From positions 1-21,339 of IMG/VR virus record IMGVR_UViG_3300009164_003561: a DNA stretch of 21,339 nt; one strand, given 5' to 3'. This stretch comes from a virus. The translations under genes were made by a program, and so were the position numbers. Under the pieces are notes generated by a model that did not search any database, was not told the DNA's origin, and was given only the letters and a program-made list of their open reading frames with translations. Below are positions 10,638 through 19,068 of the stretch, in pieces. Position 1 is the first letter of the stretch; every line of letters begins with the position of its first letter.

Positions 10638-11338
10638 GTGAAAAAATTACCATTGTAGTACCTTGCAAGAATGAGGAAAATTACATACACCATTTGTTGG
10701 ATGCTTTACGTGGACAAGACATAGGTGATACTAGGATTATTATTGCAGACTGTTCTACTGACGCGACCAGACGTATTATAGCTGACAATAGTTTTGGATT
10801 GAACATAGAAGTCATTGACGGTGGACCTGTTAGCATCGCCAAGAACAATGGCGCTAGTTTAGTCACTACCCCATACATTTTATTCATTGACGCAGACGTG
10901 CGCTTCTTTAAATACACTGTTATACAAGATGCTGTTAATTTGATTGAGTCTAAGAATTTAGATCTTATTGGACTAAGCATTAAATGTTATGATCGTGACC
11001 CACGAGCACATCTTGGATTCATTATTTTCAATACTATAAATCATGCTATGAAATATTTTTCTCCATTTGCAGTGGGAGCCTTTATGCTGACACGCAGAGA
11101 CAAGTTTGAAGAATTCGGTGGCTTCCCTGAAAACTTTGCAACAAGCGAAGATTACTTCTTATCCCGTAAGTACAATCCAAGAAAGTTTAGAATTATGAGA
11201 CATCATTTTGGACAAGATTCACGTAGGTTTAAGAAGATGGGATATCTTGGCATGGCCAAATATCTGGTCAAGAACTTTGCTAACCGTAACAATAAGAAAT
11301 ATTGGGATAGTTTGGATTCAACCAAATATTGGGGTTGA
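10622..11338 (+). CDS. Family 2 glycosyltransferase
   Basis: This 238-residue GT-A-fold enzyme starts with ITIVVPCKNEENYI (9-22), the classic GT2 nucleotide-sugar strand. It continues with the SIAKNNGAS region (71-79), the metal-binding D-x-D as FIDADV (D90, D92), and a catalytic-type SEDYFLSRK (E176, D177). A short amphipathic C-terminal part (MGYLGMAKYLVKNFANR) may touch the membrane. It would transfer a sugar to a host envelope glycan or to a phage component. It starts inside the hidden small ORF. Its TGA stop (11336-11338) lies within the -35 box of the tmRNA promoter. Confidence 0.87.
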   Translation: MSKTISEKITIVVPCKNEENYIHHLLDALRGQDIGDTRIIIADCSTDATRRIIADNSFGLNIEVIDGGPVSIAKNNGASLVTTPYILFIDADVRFFKYTVIQDAVNLIESKNLDLIGLSIKCYDRDPRAHLGFIIFNTINHAMKYFSPFAVGAFMLTRRDKFEEFGGFPENFATSEDYFLSRKYNPRKFRIMRHHFGQDSRRFKKMGYLGMAKYLVKNFANRNNKKYWDSLDSTKYWG

Positions 11339-11363
11339 CAAATAATAAATACTGTGCTATAAT
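11335..11363 (+). promoter_or_regulatory. Consensus sigma70 promoter of the tmRNA gene
   Basis: TTGACA (11335-11340) and TATAAT (11358-11363) are spaced exactly 17 nt apart, with TGC (11355-11357) making an extended -10. This is a fully consensus, constitutive-type promoter. The expected start is near 11370. A late-like ATAAATAC (11344-11351) lies in the spacer. Confidence 0.85.
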
Positions 11364-11369
11364 ACAAGT

Positions 11370-11718
11370 TATTGCTGTATGAAGCGATGTAAAATAAGTT
11401 CAAGACGCGGGGGCAGTGCCCGCCAGGTCCACCATAAAGCATATTGGTTACTATCTGTGTCCAAGAAGGTAGTGTAATATCGAGAGACACCACTCCAGTA
11501 TGTTTTATAATGGGCCTGACACAGGATCGATTGGGCAAAGAGTAACAGAGTGGACAGCTCGGCAATGTAGAAGCCGTTAGGACAGGGGTAACCCGGTCGA
11601 AGAAGCAAAACAAAGTAAACGCAAACGACTCACAGTTCGCATTAGCTGCCTAAACTCAGCTTAGGGTAAGACATACCTCGTAACAGAAACTCTAGAAAGG
11701 CTCTTCGGAGCCTTTTCT
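11370..11718 (+). ncRNA. ssrA: Circularly permuted (two-piece) tmRNA
   Basis: This transfer-messenger RNA rescues stalled ribosomes and tags the nascent peptide. The gene order is permuted. The acceptor piece comes first: T-stem GCGGG/CCCGC (11407-11411, 11419-11423), acceptor 3' strand CAGGTCC (11424-11430), discriminator A and encoded CCA (11432-11434). An intervening segment follows (about 11435-11511). The coding piece then begins GGGCCTGACACAGGATCGA (11512 on); its GGGCCTG pairs fully with the acceptor 3' strand, including a G3-U wobble, the alanine identity signal. The tag ORF starts at GCA 11621 and reads ANDSQFALAA, with TAA at 11651-11653. The mature 5' end of the acceptor piece and the 3' end of the coding piece are approximate. 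The gene has its own promoter and terminator. Permuted tmRNAs are known in alphaproteobacteria, some betaproteobacteria and cyanobacteria. Confidence 0.93.
11694..11718 (+). terminator. Intrinsic terminator of the tmRNA gene
   Basis: Stem AAAGGCTC / GAGCCTTT closed by a TTCG tetraloop (11704-11707) and ending in a short T-run (TTTTCT). It separates the tmRNA from the methyltransferase gene. Confidence 0.82.
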
Positions 11719-11735: not shown

Positions 11736-12557
11736 ATGATACAATTAAACTATAACTTAAACAACAAGGACGTCTCGATCTCATGGTCGAATAAAGAAGT
11801 TTTTAGGGAGGTGGTTGGACTACAAACAAGTTGGTTTGGATATACCTCAGATGAATTAACAGATGAGATATTGCTGAGTAAATTGCACTCTGAATACATT
11901 GGGTTTATGGAGTCTGTTCTAGAAAACACACGATTACCTGAGAATCCAGTAATACTAGACATAGGATCTGGGAATAGTATTATAGATCTTGCCCTATACA
12001 AATATTTTGATAAAAAAGCAAAATTTTATCTTTTAGATGGCGATAAACTATTCCCTCCACTGTATACTAAAGAAATAAATCTACATGATAGTAACTTTAT
12101 AACATTCAATACCTGGGAGCCTGTATTAGATGCAATTAAAACCAATGACTTCGATGTTAACGACTTTACTTTTTTGGTTCCAAACACAGAATGGAACGGA
12201 GAAGAATACGTACCCTCGAAAAAATCCGATGCCCAATTTGAAAATATTCAGGTTGACATGATCATATCTAAAAGTTCTTGTGGTCTACATTATCCTATTA
12301 ATATATATTGGGAAAAGATCCTGCAGATATTAAAGCCCGGTGGCTGGTTGTATGTTGCTCCTATGATAAACATAGGAAATCAATTTGAATTTGTTTCATC
12401 ACATTTAGGTGAGCCCATAAAAGTTAATACTATGTCCATGGATACAATCAAGAAGGATAGACCCAACGATTTCCTACGTTGGGAAAAATTAATGCCAGAT
12501 GCACATAACCCAAACGCAATCTGGGCATACAATGCTTTGTGGCAACGCCCACTATAA
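11736..12557 (+). CDS. SAM-dependent methyltransferase-like protein
   Basis: This 273-residue protein has a Rossmann methyltransferase core: motif I VILDIGSGNSIID (72-84), an acidic end of strand 2 in FYLLDGD (97-103), and motif post-III LQILKPGGWLYVAP (196-209). The stretch VDMIISKSSCGLHYPIN (173-189) occupies the usual motif IV place. The pattern of an N-terminal 60-residue helical cap and LKPGG suggests the putative sugar or small-molecule methyltransferases of phages rather than DNA methylases; there is no [DN]PPY. The target is unknown. The start at 11736 has no Shine-Dalgarno sequence but lies 5 nt after a late-promoter-like element. Confidence 0.75.
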   Translation: MIQLNYNLNNKDVSISWSNKEVFREVVGLQTSWFGYTSDELTDEILLSKLHSEYIGFMESVLENTRLPENPVILDIGSGNSIIDLALYKYFDKKAKFYLLDGDKLFPPLYTKEINLHDSNFITFNTWEPVLDAIKTNDFDVNDFTFLVPNTEWNGEEYVPSKKSDAQFENIQVDMIISKSSCGLHYPINIYWEKILQILKPGGWLYVAPMINIGNQFEFVSSHLGEPIKVNTMSMDTIKKDRPNDFLRWEKLMPDAHNPNAIWAYNALWQRPL

Positions 12558-12596: not shown

Positions 12597-12663
12597 TTAG
12601 CGAAAACACCATTGATTTTGCTGATTATAAAGATATATACTATACACTTAGTGAAAACACTAA
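12597..12663 (+). promoter_or_regulatory. ahpC promoter bracketed by repeated operator-like sites
   Basis: TTGATT (12612-12617) and TATACT (12636-12641) are 18 nt apart. Immediately upstream of the -35 box lies TTAGCGAAAACACCA (12597-12611); immediately downstream of the -10, at the expected start point, lies TTAGTGAAAACACTAA (12648-12663), a perfect TTAGTG-AAAA-CACTAA dyad. The two sites share TTAG[CT]GAAAACAC[CT]A and start 51 nt apart. This looks like a repressor pair flanking the promoter. Confidence 0.55.
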
Positions 12664-12692
12664 TACGAATTTTTAACTTAAAGGAAATCAAA

Positions 12693-13247
12693 ATGAAAAC
12701 AGTTGGAGATAAATTATCCCCATTCGCAGTAACAGGCGTTAACCCAGGTAAAGATGACTTCTTTACTATTACAGAAAAATCATTTGAAGGCAAGTGGAAA
12801 GTAATTGTTTACTATCCAAAAGACTTTACATTCGTATGCCCTACAGAAATTGTAGCCTACGACAAGTTATTCCAAGACTTTGCTGACCGTGATGCAGTCC
12901 TGCTAACAGGTTCAACAGACAATGAGTTTTGCAAACTGGCATGGCAACGTAGCCATGAAGACTTGAGCAAGATCAAGCACATTCAATTTGCCGACACTGC
13001 TCGTCACCAAAGCGGTGAAGAACGTGGTAGCGTGAGCTTAATTGAACAACTGGGCGTGTTCTATGCTCCAGCAGGTGCCGCACTACGTGCCACATTCATT
13101 GTTGACCCAAGCAATGAAATCCAGCACATCACTGTCAACAACTTGAATGTGGGTCGTAACCCAGAAGAAACACTTCGTGTGTTGGATGCGCTACAAACTG
13201 GCGAACTATGCGCCTGTAATCGAACAGTTGGCGGCGAGACTCTATAA
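12693..13247 (+). CDS. ahpC: Alkyl hydroperoxide reductase C, typical 2-Cys peroxiredoxin
   Basis: This 184-residue peroxiredoxin reduces H2O2 and organic peroxides in the cytosol. The peroxidatic cysteine C49 is in DFTFVCPTE, the GSTDNEFCKLAW region follows, and the C-terminal C173-A-C175 is present. The CxC tail resembles AhpC proteins that are reduced by AhpD rather than AhpF, which fits the neighbour. The start at 12693 has AAAGGAAATC upstream and matches family starts; a longer reading from TTG at 12612 would run through the promoter and is rejected. It overlaps ahpD by TAATG. Confidence 0.94.
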   Translation: MKTVGDKLSPFAVTGVNPGKDDFFTITEKSFEGKWKVIVYYPKDFTFVCPTEIVAYDKLFQDFADRDAVLLTGSTDNEFCKLAWQRSHEDLSKIKHIQFADTARHQSGEERGSVSLIEQLGVFYAPAGAALRATFIVDPSNEIQHITVNNLNVGRNPEETLRVLDALQTGELCACNRTVGGETL

Positions 13248-13753
13248 TGGCATTCATTGACGCAATCAAAACTGCGTTGCCAGACTACGCAAAAGATACC
13301 AAGTTAAATCTTGATGCTGTTCTTTTGCGTAGCACATTGGACGCAGATGTAGCCATGGGTTGTGCTGTAGCGGCATTGGCTGCAACCGGCAACGGTAAAG
13401 TATTAAGCATACTATTAGCAGACGGCCCATTACACGCAGAGTCAGCAATGACAGCCGCAAGTATCATGGCACAAAACAACGTTTGGTATCCCTACGTTGA
13501 GATGGCTGATGATCCCAGTCTAAAAGGCCTGCCAGCACAGTTACGTATGAACGCAATCGCAAGCCATGGTGGAACTACCAAGTCAAACTTTGAAGCATTT
13601 AGTTTGGCGGCAAGTATTGTAGGTAAATGTCACTTCTGTGTTAAGGCACACTACGAAACACTCAAGACGGAAGGTTACACCGTAGAGAACCTTCGTGACA
13701 TTGGCAGAATTGCCAGTGTTATGAATAGTGTCGCCAAAGTTTTGAATAGTTAA
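13247..13753 (+). CDS. ahpD: AhpD-type alkyl hydroperoxidase / AhpC reductant
   Basis: This 168-residue AhpD-fold protein has the catalytic constellation E116...C128-HF-C131-xxx-H135, with the same spacings as the characterised AhpD (Glu 12 residues before the CxxC, His 4 after the second Cys). AhpD passes electrons from a lipoyl-protein couple to AhpC and has weak peroxidase activity itself. The start codon overlaps the ahpC stop, so the two are co-translated. A strong terminator follows at 13769. It is an uncommon function for a phage and implies peroxide protection of the infected cell. Confidence 0.9.
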   Translation: MAFIDAIKTALPDYAKDTKLNLDAVLLRSTLDADVAMGCAVAALAATGNGKVLSILLADGPLHAESAMTAASIMAQNNVWYPYVEMADDPSLKGLPAQLRMNAIASHGGTTKSNFEAFSLAASIVGKCHFCVKAHYETLKTEGYTVENLRDIGRIASVMNSVAKVLNS

Positions 13754-13910: not shown

Positions 13911-14810
13911 ATGACAACAACAATTACAATCAAAGACAAAGCAGTAAATGCTACATACCAAAATGTCACAGGCTTGACGGGTGGCTCTGGTGATGGTGCC
14001 GCATTTGATGTTACAAAAACCAACGGAGTTTATTCTGTTGTATTAGATTCATTGGCAGCCAGCGCAGGCCGAGGCTATGTTGCTGGGGACACTATCACAC
14101 TTGCTGGTACGGCGTTAGGTGGCACAACAGCTAACAACCTAATCGTTACTGTAGCTACAGTTGGTACACTGGGTAAAATTGCTACATTCGGTGTAGTGGG
14201 CACAGGCCGCATCGGTGATGGTACTGTTGACGTTGTTGTAGATGTTACAGGCACCACAGGTGTTGATACTTATGCAATGGGTGGCGCAAGCACAGAATAT
14301 ACTGTTACTAAAACTGCCGACAACGTAAAGTTAGCAAGTACGTTAGTTAGTAACATGGAATTCAACCTTGCTAACCACGAGCGTGTTGTATTCACTGACA
14401 AAGCCGTTGCTTATGATGCCGCAGGTCGTGCAGGTGATGTATACGCATTGTTGGCAGCCGCACTAGGTACAGCTGATGTTACCAAAGCCTACACCGGTAT
14501 TGGTATTAGTCTTGCTGACGCAGGTTGGACAAACAAGCAATTGGCACAGGCATTGTTGGCCACAGACACTTACAAAACAGACGCAGGTGGTATCAGTGAT
14601 GAAACATTTATCAAGCATGTTTACAAAAATGTCTACGGCGCTGATGCTACACTAACACAGGTCACAGACTACACAGCATGGATGACTAATAGCAAGTTGA
14701 GTCAAGCTGATGTACTAGTTGCTGCCAGTGAATTGGCAGCATTTGAAACAACAATTGGCCTAGTTGGTTTGGCCACCACTGGTATTGAATACACTCCGGT
14801 TACTGTATAA
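13911..14810 (+). CDS. Chimeric surface-type protein: phage Gly-rich module plus DUF4214
   Basis: This 299-residue acidic, Cys-free, Thr/Ala/Gly-rich protein has no N-terminal signal peptide. Residues 15-90 (GGSGDGAAFDVTKTNG, GRGYVAGDTITLAG, GGTTANN) have the pattern of a beta module common in phage fibres and virion proteins. Residues 130-175 lead into ERVVFTDKAVAYD and AGDVYALLAAALG. The C-terminal part FIKHVYKNVYGAD...LSQADVLVAASELAAFE fits DUF4214, found in type I-secreted RTX/S-layer-type proteins. It would be a virion decoration or an exported adhesin. It has its own promoter and terminator, a monocistronic cassette between two identical terminators. Confidence 0.75.
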   Translation: MTTTITIKDKAVNATYQNVTGLTGGSGDGAAFDVTKTNGVYSVVLDSLAASAGRGYVAGDTITLAGTALGGTTANNLIVTVATVGTLGKIATFGVVGTGRIGDGTVDVVVDVTGTTGVDTYAMGGASTEYTVTKTADNVKLASTLVSNMEFNLANHERVVFTDKAVAYDAAGRAGDVYALLAAALGTADVTKAYTGIGISLADAGWTNKQLAQALLATDTYKTDAGGISDETFIKHVYKNVYGADATLTQVTDYTAWMTNSKLSQADVLVAASELAAFETTIGLVGLATTGIEYTPVTV

Positions 14811-14828
14811 CAGTTACAAAAAGTATTA

Positions 14829-14855
14829 TAAACCCGCTTCGGCGGGTTTTCTTTT
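14829..14855 (+). terminator. Intrinsic terminator, copy 2
   Basis: Identical to the ahpCD terminator: AAACCCGC / GCGGGTTT stem, TTCG loop, T-rich tail. It ends the DUF4214 gene and lies just ahead of the desaturase ATG. Confidence 0.9.
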
Positions 14856-14862
14856 GACTATA

Positions 14863-15594
14863 ATGTCTTATGATAAGTACAGTATGACTATATTTCTGTA
14901 CATTTTGATCGTAACACATATTACTATTATTTCGGTGACCCTATTTTTACACAGGGGTCAAGCACATCGGGGATTTGTATTTCATCCCTTGTTAGAGCAT
15001 TTTATGAGGTTCTGGTTGTGGTTAACCACAGGCATGATTACCAAGCAATGGGTGGCAATACACCGCAAACATCACAGATTCAGTGATCAAGAAGGTGACC
15101 CACACAGTCCCGTGGTCTACGGCATAAAAAATATATTTCTACGTGGAGTATATTACTATTATCTTGCAGCCAAAGACACCAGCATATTATTCAGCTATGG
15201 CAAAGGCACACCCAACGACTGGATAGAACGCAGACTCTACACTCCCTATAACAAGTATGGCATATTACTGATGTTGTTGATTGATGTCGTATTATTTGGC
15301 TGGCTGGGATTTGTTGTCTGGGGCATACAAATGATATGGATCCCATTCTGGGCCGCAGGTGTTGTCAATGGTATTGGCCACTGGTGGGGATACCGCAATG
15401 GCGAAACCAAGGACAACAGTAAAAACATCAGTCCCTGGGGTATTGTAATTGGCGGCGAAGAACTACACAATAACCATCACTTAAATCCAGCAAGTCCAAA
15501 GTTGAGTAAATATTGGTTTGAATTTGACATAGGATGGATGTGGTTTTGTGTATTTAAATTTTTTGGCCTTGCTAAATTAAGATCTGCTGATTAA
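14863..15594 (+). CDS. Membrane fatty-acid desaturase
   Basis: This 243-residue di-iron membrane desaturase belongs to the acyl-CoA/acyl-lipid delta-9 type. Histidine boxes: HRGQAH (30-35), HRKHH (67-71) and HNNHH (202-206), plus NGIGHWWGYRN (169-179). Hydrophobic segments lie at about 9-29, 46-60, 130-150 and 153-170. It would introduce double bonds into membrane lipids and alter envelope fluidity. The length is at the short end of the family but the boxes are complete. The ATG at 14863 is used; M8 (14884) is an alternative, and no strong Shine-Dalgarno sequence is seen. A longer reading from 14764 would run through the terminator and is rejected. Confidence 0.88.
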   Translation: MSYDKYSMTIFLYILIVTHITIISVTLFLHRGQAHRGFVFHPLLEHFMRFWLWLTTGMITKQWVAIHRKHHRFSDQEGDPHSPVVYGIKNIFLRGVYYYYLAAKDTSILFSYGKGTPNDWIERRLYTPYNKYGILLMLLIDVVLFGWLGFVVWGIQMIWIPFWAAGVVNGIGHWWGYRNGETKDNSKNISPWGIVIGGEELHNNHHLNPASPKLSKYWFEFDIGWMWFCVFKFFGLAKLRSAD

Positions 15595-18013: not shown

Positions 18014-18538
18014 ATGGATATTAAACAGGTAATAAGAACAGTAGACGACTTCCCCAAGCCAGGGGTCAAATTTCTTGACGTCACAAGTATTTTAGAAGAT
18101 ACAAGCGCATTTAGAAAAACAATAAATTGGTTAGTCAAACAAAGTGCAAGACATAATACAGACTGTATTGTTGCCATAGACGCACGTGGTTTTATCTGGG
18201 GTTCTGCCCTGGCATCGGAAATACAAGTGCCATTATTTCTAGCACGTAAACCAGGTAAACTTCCTGGCAATGTTGTAACCAAAGAATACGACACTGAATA
18301 TAGTACGGCAAGTTTAAGTATGCTCAAAGACAGCGACATACATGGCAACGTAATGATAGTTGATGATATTCTTGCCACCGGAGGAACATTAAATGCTGTG
18401 GGATCTATGTTAACTGAGCATTGGGATATAGAACCTAATAAACAAACCCATTGTGTAATTGCCAATTTAGATTTCTTACCGGGAAAAAAACGGCTGACAA
18501 CAGCGGGCTATAAACTAGAGTACATGGTGGAATATTAA
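18014..18538 (+). CDS. apt: Adenine phosphoribosyltransferase-like protein
   Basis: This 174-residue type I phosphoribosyltransferase is close to bacterial Apt (adenine + PRPP to AMP). Apt hallmarks: DDFPKPGVKFLDVTSIL (11-27), IDARGFIWGSALA (55-67), ARKPGKLPG (77-85), and the PRPP loop VDDILATGGTLNA (116-128), where both acidic residues are kept. In this role it would salvage adenine released from host nucleic acid. The gene overlaps its paralogue by TAATG. There is no obvious promoter between the terminator at 17975 and the ATG; the start is weakly supported by a GAG upstream. Confidence 0.9.
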   Translation: MDIKQVIRTVDDFPKPGVKFLDVTSILEDTSAFRKTINWLVKQSARHNTDCIVAIDARGFIWGSALASEIQVPLFLARKPGKLPGNVVTKEYDTEYSTASLSMLKDSDIHGNVMIVDDILATGGTLNAVGSMLTEHWDIEPNKQTHCVIANLDFLPGKKRLTTAGYKLEYMVEY

Positions 18539-19068
18539 TGAACATAGATCCATTAGTAAAAGTTGTTTATGACTTTCCTTATAAAGGAAAAATCACCATG
18601 GATATGTCTCCACTGTACACGACACCCGAAGCATTTAATTTTTGTGTAAGTTGGTTGACAGAATTGGTGAAGTCAAATAACATAGAACATATAGTTGCCA
18701 TAGAAACACGTGGTTTTTTGGCGTCTGCCGCAGTGGCCTATGAAACAAAACTACCATTACACCTTGCACGTAAGACTATATTAATGCCCGGCGAATTTGT
18801 AACCAAAAAATTTACCCAAAGAGACAAACCCTATGTATTATCTTTGTCAAAGACGATGCCTATATCCGGCAATGTAATGATATTTGATGATATCGTGGCA
18901 TCTGGCGCAACACTTAACGCAGTGGGAGAAATGTTAACCGAGCATTGGAATATAGCACCAAAAAATCAACTACATACGGCATTGGTATATTCAGTGGCGT
19001 CACAGGGAGAACAAATGCTGTTGGATGCTGGTTATATGATGTCTTATCTAGCTAAGATTAATTGTTAA
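18538..19068 (+). CDS. Divergent Apt paralogue
   Basis: This 176-residue protein aligns with the preceding Apt from end to end almost without gaps; for example GNVMIFDDIVASGATLNAVG (111-130) lies at the same positions as GNVMIVDDILATGGTLNAVG, and both continue with MLTEHW. Adenine-site signatures are altered: FPKPG has become FPYKG, ARKPGKLPG has become ARKTILMPG, and the PRPP loop reads ASGAT. It may have a different substrate or be a regulatory subunit forming a hetero-oligomer with its neighbour. It is translationally coupled to apt (TAATG) and converges with the minus-strand radical SAM gene, their 3' ends overlapping by 11 nt. Confidence 0.85.
   Translation: MNIDPLVKVVYDFPYKGKITMDMSPLYTTPEAFNFCVSWLTELVKSNNIEHIVAIETRGFLASAAVAYETKLPLHLARKTILMPGEFVTKKFTQRDKPYVLSLSKTMPISGNVMIFDDIVASGATLNAVGEMLTEHWNIAPKNQLHTALVYSVASQGEQMLLDAGYMMSYLAKINC

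Follow-up and report, generated by a model that had tools for sequence, protein, structure and literature searches.

A complete circularly permuted tmRNA gene on a viral DNA fragment, and probable protein genes in the spacers of its phage relatives

Positions 1 to 21,339 of the IMG/VR virus record IMGVR_UViG_3300009164_003561 were analysed, and this whole stretch of 21,339 nucleotides (nt) is called the window. It contains a complete, circularly permuted gene for transfer-messenger RNA (tmRNA; gene ssrA) at 11370-11718 on the plus strand, as a first-pass annotation made from the letters alone had proposed. Three Rfam covariance models recognized the gene, each above its cut-off. RF04321 (tmRNA_permuted, cut-off 47 bits) matched 11373-11653 (+) in the cmscan search with 99.8 bits and an E value of 1e-18, and the whole model (1-213) was covered. 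The two subtype models, which the first-pass annotation had named as a check, gave mixed scores: RF01850 (beta_tmRNA) matched 11321-11718 with 86.3 bits (cmscan, E 4.7e-25), just above its cut-off of 84, versus 78.7 bits for RF01849 (alpha_tmRNA) with a cut-off of 50. ARAGORN, run on the window, did not report the permuted gene. The T-loop GGCAGUG was considered as the cause of this miss and rejected, as ARAGORN found two viral genes with the same loop (L344 and L404).

The features of the gene are collected in Table 1. The arrangement with the acceptor piece first, the perfect acceptor pairing, the encoded CCA, the tag frame with its stop codon and the gene's own consensus promoter were all present as first described, and transcription would start near 11370. 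The tag codons read GCA AAC GAC TCA CAG TTC GCA TTA GCT GCC TAA. The proposed terminator was upheld only in part: the hairpin is real and lies within the match of the beta model, but the U tract that goes with it is short, and it was not called by a terminator scan. The intervening sequence, called the spacer below, folds with -19.2 kcal/mol (z -2.65), and a long stem joins its two ends. It is a non-coding hairpin; no open reading frame (ORF) fills it.

Table 1. Features of the permuted tmRNA gene in the window
Feature	Position	Strand	Remarks
Sigma-70 promoter, TTGACA-17-TATAAT	11335..11363	+	12/12 matches; overlaps stop codon of upstream glycosyltransferase gene
Acceptor piece, ends in encoded CCA	11370..11434 (5' end approximate)	+	Conserved in alignment of 14 phage tmRNAs
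T arm GCGGG-GGCAGUG-CCCGC, non-standard T-loop	11407..11423	+	T-loop 11412-11418; GGCAG loop type also in SAR11 ssrA
Acceptor 3' strand CAGGUCC (11424-11430), discriminator A, CCA (11432-11434)	11424..11434	+	
Intervening sequence, 77 nt, predicted to be removed on maturation	11435..11511	+	Hairpin closed by long stem
Acceptor 5' strand GGGCCUG	11512..11518	+	Pairs 7/7 with 11424-11430; third pair G-U (G3-U70)
Predicted RNase P site	directly 5' of 11512	+	
Coding piece	11512..11698 (3' end approximate)	+	beta_tmRNA match; alignment of 14 phage tmRNAs
D-loop region ACACAGGAUCGA	11519..11530	+	Co-varies with T-loop type
Tag frame, resume codon GCA at 11621, then stop; terminal Ala-Ala	11621..11653	+	ANDSQFALAA
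Terminal hairpin AAAGGCUC-UUCG-GAGCCUUU, short U tract, probable terminator	11696..11715	+	Part of beta_tmRNA model

Covariation was analysed with viral contigs that carry the same type of gene. The acceptor strands, which were located independently of their pairing, paired at seven of seven positions in 42 of the 46 distinct combinations, and these included 10 different 3' strands. When a strand of another type was swapped in as a control, full pairing was found in 13.5%. The G3-U70 pair was retained in all standard stem types; a G-U as third acceptor pair is the signal for alanyl-tRNA synthetase. The second site of covariation was the tRNA-like elbow. In viral and bacterial genes taken together, the bacterial part having been picked for the GGCAG loop, a U55 in the T-loop occurred with a D-loop GG in 22 of 25 cases and a G55 with a D-loop AG in 107 of 110. 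Such a pattern reads as a covarying elbow contact between positions 18 and 55. The unusual T-loop of the window gene is likewise matched with a D-loop AG, as in SAR11 genes.

When 14 phage relatives were aligned, hardly any variation was seen in the two mature pieces, while the spacer is free in length and content. Excision of the spacer would lead to such a pattern, and processing to two RNAs that lack the spacer is thus predicted from the contrast between the hypervariable spacer and the conserved pieces. Pairing between the spacer ends is common also in the other non-coding phage spacers, with a median of -13.1 kcal/mol versus -5.3 kcal/mol for shuffled ends. In one contig (L154, reverse strand) the spacer hairpin is almost identical to that of the window, while the flanking acceptor piece belongs to another subtype, which suggests that spacers may recombine as modules.

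In contrast to the non-coding hairpin of the window, many spacers of its relatives are filled with ORFs. In the phage family of the window's tmRNA, the excised spacer is very probably a site for protein genes, so that one transcript would be the source of an mRNA as well as of the two-piece tmRNA; the nested genes, in the same highly likely reading, are complete and small, have a Shine-Dalgarno sequence right after the CCA, and stop at or beside the predicted RNase P site. Two samples were used. Among 106 phage spacers of at least 70 nt, collected without selection for ORFs, 24 contained an ORF that fills the spacer and is preceded by a Shine-Dalgarno sequence, compared with 1.9 expected from dinucleotide shuffles. 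For the spacers of at least 150 nt, 10 were filled versus 0.03 expected. The other sample came from a scan for CCA followed by UAAGGA, and was thus selected on the Shine-Dalgarno sequence; here 59 of 80 spacers (at least 70 nt) held an ORF of 20 codons or more that ended at most 15 nt from the predicted RNase P site. A constant UGAU before the cleavage site partly explains the exact stop position of the nested ORFs, and therefore the stop position was not used alone as evidence. The AGGA after the CCA was found in 2 of 106 bacterial permuted genes, mostly of SAR11.

Several spacer ORFs encode recognizable proteins. That of L525 encodes a thioredoxin (PF00085, E 4.1e-21), and DUF2061 membrane proteins are encoded in the spacers of L404, which lies in a 320-kb record (E 3.5e-20), and L526 (E 3.7e-21). 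The ORF of L584 has a weak HNH match just under the cut-off. Many others encode hydrophobic peptides of 21-30 residues, i.e., small membrane peptides, and further spacers with protein ORFs were found in L333, L408, L344, L540, L565, L575 and others. The tmRNA models still match across the inserts, e.g., with 136 bits over 512 nt in L525. Homologous spacer ORFs differed at 109, 60 and 223 sites at codon positions 1, 2 and 3, respectively, counted over pairs that are not independent; such a codon-position bias is the mark expected of selection at the protein level. Homologous ORFs were also found in tmRNA genes with unlike T-loops (L565 compared with L540 and L575; also L406, L127 and L132), and thus what the spacers contain seems to be mobile in the form of cassettes. 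The spacer ORFs of L333, L408, L536 and L575 and the window gene at 1264-1866 have the pattern M(K/R)I.E(L/I) in common at the N-terminus, in many cases with an L.E-like motif after it. This is possibly a leader that directs proteins to the capsid, like that of the internal proteins of T4.

No published report of a protein gene in the spacer of a permuted tmRNA was found in a literature search of incomplete coverage, which leaves the novelty unproven. A 2025 tmRNA database paper with 97,179 sequences describes, in the passages located on intervening sequences, one with a tRNA gene and one with a repeat element, and no protein gene (PMC11915505).

The window gene itself joins an already known class, because phage-borne permuted two-piece tmRNAs have been published, e.g., for the OM43 phage Melnitz (PMC9004378). 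Melnitz is a T4-like aquatic phage, and it presents a similar mismatch of lineages, since its ssrA is related to that of SAR11 although its OM43 host belongs to a beta-derived clade (PMC9004378). In Melnitz, which has a genome of 141 kb, a glutamine riboswitch is linked to the ssrA gene, in contrast to the window, where the Rfam scan gave no riboswitch match; this comparison was made by description.

With the bacterial genes the likeness is divided. The Burkholderiales ssrA (RF01850) shares with the window gene the permuted form, the AND..FALAA tag, the 3' domain and a score above the cut-off of the model, but a genuine bacterial gene reached 251.5 bits, the exact tag of the window gene lies outside the sample, and its T-loop is of the GGCAG type. 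The ssrA genes of SAR11 and other alphaproteobacteria (RF01849) share the permuted form, the GGCAG T-loop and the D-loop AG..UCGA, but SAR11 tags are different, e.g., ANESYALAA and ANDKFALAA. The bacterial spacers are also much shorter, with a median of 12 nt in the 106 permuted genes, versus 77 nt in the window. The window RNA thus mixes a Burkholderiales-like FALAA tag with a SAR11-type elbow, the combination of T-loop GGCAGUG and D-loop AGGAUCGA being that of SAR11 and other alphaproteobacterial ssrA genes. That the T-loop is a novelty or a sign of decay in the phage was considered and rejected, because a genome scan found it in the ssrA of SAR11 and others.

The suggestion that the ALAA tag may point to the host proved weak. 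AND..FALAA tags, mostly ANDERFALAA, occurred in 81 of 399 sampled genomes from the order of the beta-type reference. However, the exact tag ANDSQFALAA was present in none of these 399, the form with Q at position 5, ANDEQFALAA, in one, and AND.QFALAA in none of the 398 genomes of a wider sample. A host prediction from the tag was therefore dropped; given the mixed features of tag and elbow, a host cannot be told from the tag alone, and none is named.

Cultured phages also carry such genes. A blastn search with the whole window gene against annotated phages gave no match, and a short query gave weak matches to the T arm; of six that were followed up, five proved to be permuted tmRNAs. These are unannotated genes in the Xanthomonas phage X1, the Caulobacter phage CcrPW, the Mesorhizobium phage Cp1R7A-A1, the Erythrobacter phage XM05 and the Stenotrophomonas phage QDWS359; the match in the Phaeobacter phage MD18 was rejected, as it is not a permuted tmRNA. 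In QDWS359 (L482) the annotation places a hypothetical coding sequence over the permuted tmRNA, on the other strand. The X1 gene (OQ427096, about 121009-121337, equal to L478 6970-7298) scored 76.6 bits. It lies about 3-5 kb from the ribonucleotide reductase genes nrdA/nrdB, and its nrdB is the closest phage nrdB to that of the window (62%). In contrast to the window gene, it has a standard UUCGAUU T-loop, and its tag as read by ARAGORN ends in ANDADYSVARYA.

The simplest reading of the window gene, and the likely one, is that it is a working phage ssrA in permuted form which, as the first-pass annotation had supposed, supplies a ribosome-rescue RNA; this would act in trans-translation together with host factors. 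A single transcript would start near 11370, the RNase P of the host would cut before the coding piece, 3' processing would expose the CCA, and the hairpin spacer would be discarded. The two pieces would be held together by the acceptor stem and by a helix of 11374-11378 with 11554-11558. The host alanyl-tRNA synthetase would charge the RNA with alanine via G3-U70, and with host SmpB and EF-Tu it would enter ribosomes stalled on broken mRNA. Translation would resume at the GCA, and the protein would be freed with the tag and degraded by host proteases of the ClpXP type. During infection, with host mRNA being cut and the making of host ssrA at an end, this could add to the capacity for rescue, which would be the benefit to the phage. 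Two points weigh against this reading. The T-loop is unlike the usual TPsiC loop, though bacterial ssrA genes of SAR11 share the type; and the evidence is that of sequence anatomy and of selection, seen in the covariation and in the conservation of the pieces as against the spacer, so that alanylation, SmpB binding and trans-translation are predicted and acceptance of the RNA by host SmpB and alanyl-tRNA synthetase is an assumption. A further proposal, that the tag confers altered proteolysis, was not supported; it is unlikely, since the tag retains the LAA degron at its C-terminus.

The matured and charged RNA might instead act mainly as a decoy or competitor of the host tmRNA and, instead of adding to rescue, turn trans-translation or tagging to the advantage of the phage. 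Inhibition of host tmRNA by a phage tmRNA without a tag is reported in the database paper (PMC11915505), and the absence of the exact tag from the genomes of the beta-type order would fit, but the tag frame is intact and its LAA end is conserved in many relatives, as full trans-translation predicts, and this alternative is thus regarded as unlikely. Far less probable is that the gene is a functionless host ssrA fragment or transducing remnant. Prophages often hold ssrA fragments left by imprecise excision (PMC9004378); however, the gene is complete, has a perfect promoter and a tag that is not among the sampled host tags, and the compensatory changes and the conservation in many viral contigs largely refute a remnant. 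That the window, a 21-kb metagenomic fragment, is an assembly chimera of phage and host DNA, which the first-pass annotation had named as a refuting condition, is excluded by independent contigs, since L024 and L025 align over 955 bp from the glycosyltransferase gene into the tmRNA (10643-11582), across the junction, and in L422, which lies in a contig of 229 kb, the tmRNA adjoins the same phosphoesterase-glycosyltransferase pair.

This metallophosphoesterase-glycosyltransferase pair upstream of the tmRNA is conserved in dozens of viral contigs. A permuted tmRNA above the cut-off was found in 18 of the 20 related viral records searched, several of which have 229-353 kb, and a T4-type portal in 12 of 15. 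Records related by the glycosyltransferase or the tmRNA reach 229-364 kb, and three (G003, G004 and G005) share genes and the tmRNA with the window and carry the T4 portal gene. The portal gene was not found in the window itself, which is a 21-kb fragment. Based on these large related records, the window most likely comes from the genome of a T4-like jumbo phage, and the relatives suggest a fresh-water habitat. None of the 12 related tmRNA-bearing phage records searched had a gene for SmpB, and thus the RNA would depend on the host SmpB.

No relative of the downstream ORF (11736-12557) was found in viral contigs. Elsewhere in the window, genes for an AhpC-type peroxiredoxin and an AhpD-family protein lie next to each other (12612-13753), an oxidative-stress pair that was not expected in a phage. 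A DesA-family fatty acid desaturase gene is present at 14764-15594 (NCBIfam E 3e-118, just under the curated cut-off), and two related phosphoribosyltransferase genes lie in tandem at 18014-19068.

Taken together, the window adds a lineage, most likely of T4-like jumbo phages and probably of fresh water, to those already known to supply ribosome rescue themselves. Such genes are easily overlooked, as ARAGORN misses that of the window and those of X1 and others lack annotation. More broadly, permuted tmRNA genes can, very probably, carry protein genes in their spacer. If these are translated, the precursor of a stable RNA would also serve as a messenger, and maturation of the tmRNA could be coupled to translation of the nested gene.
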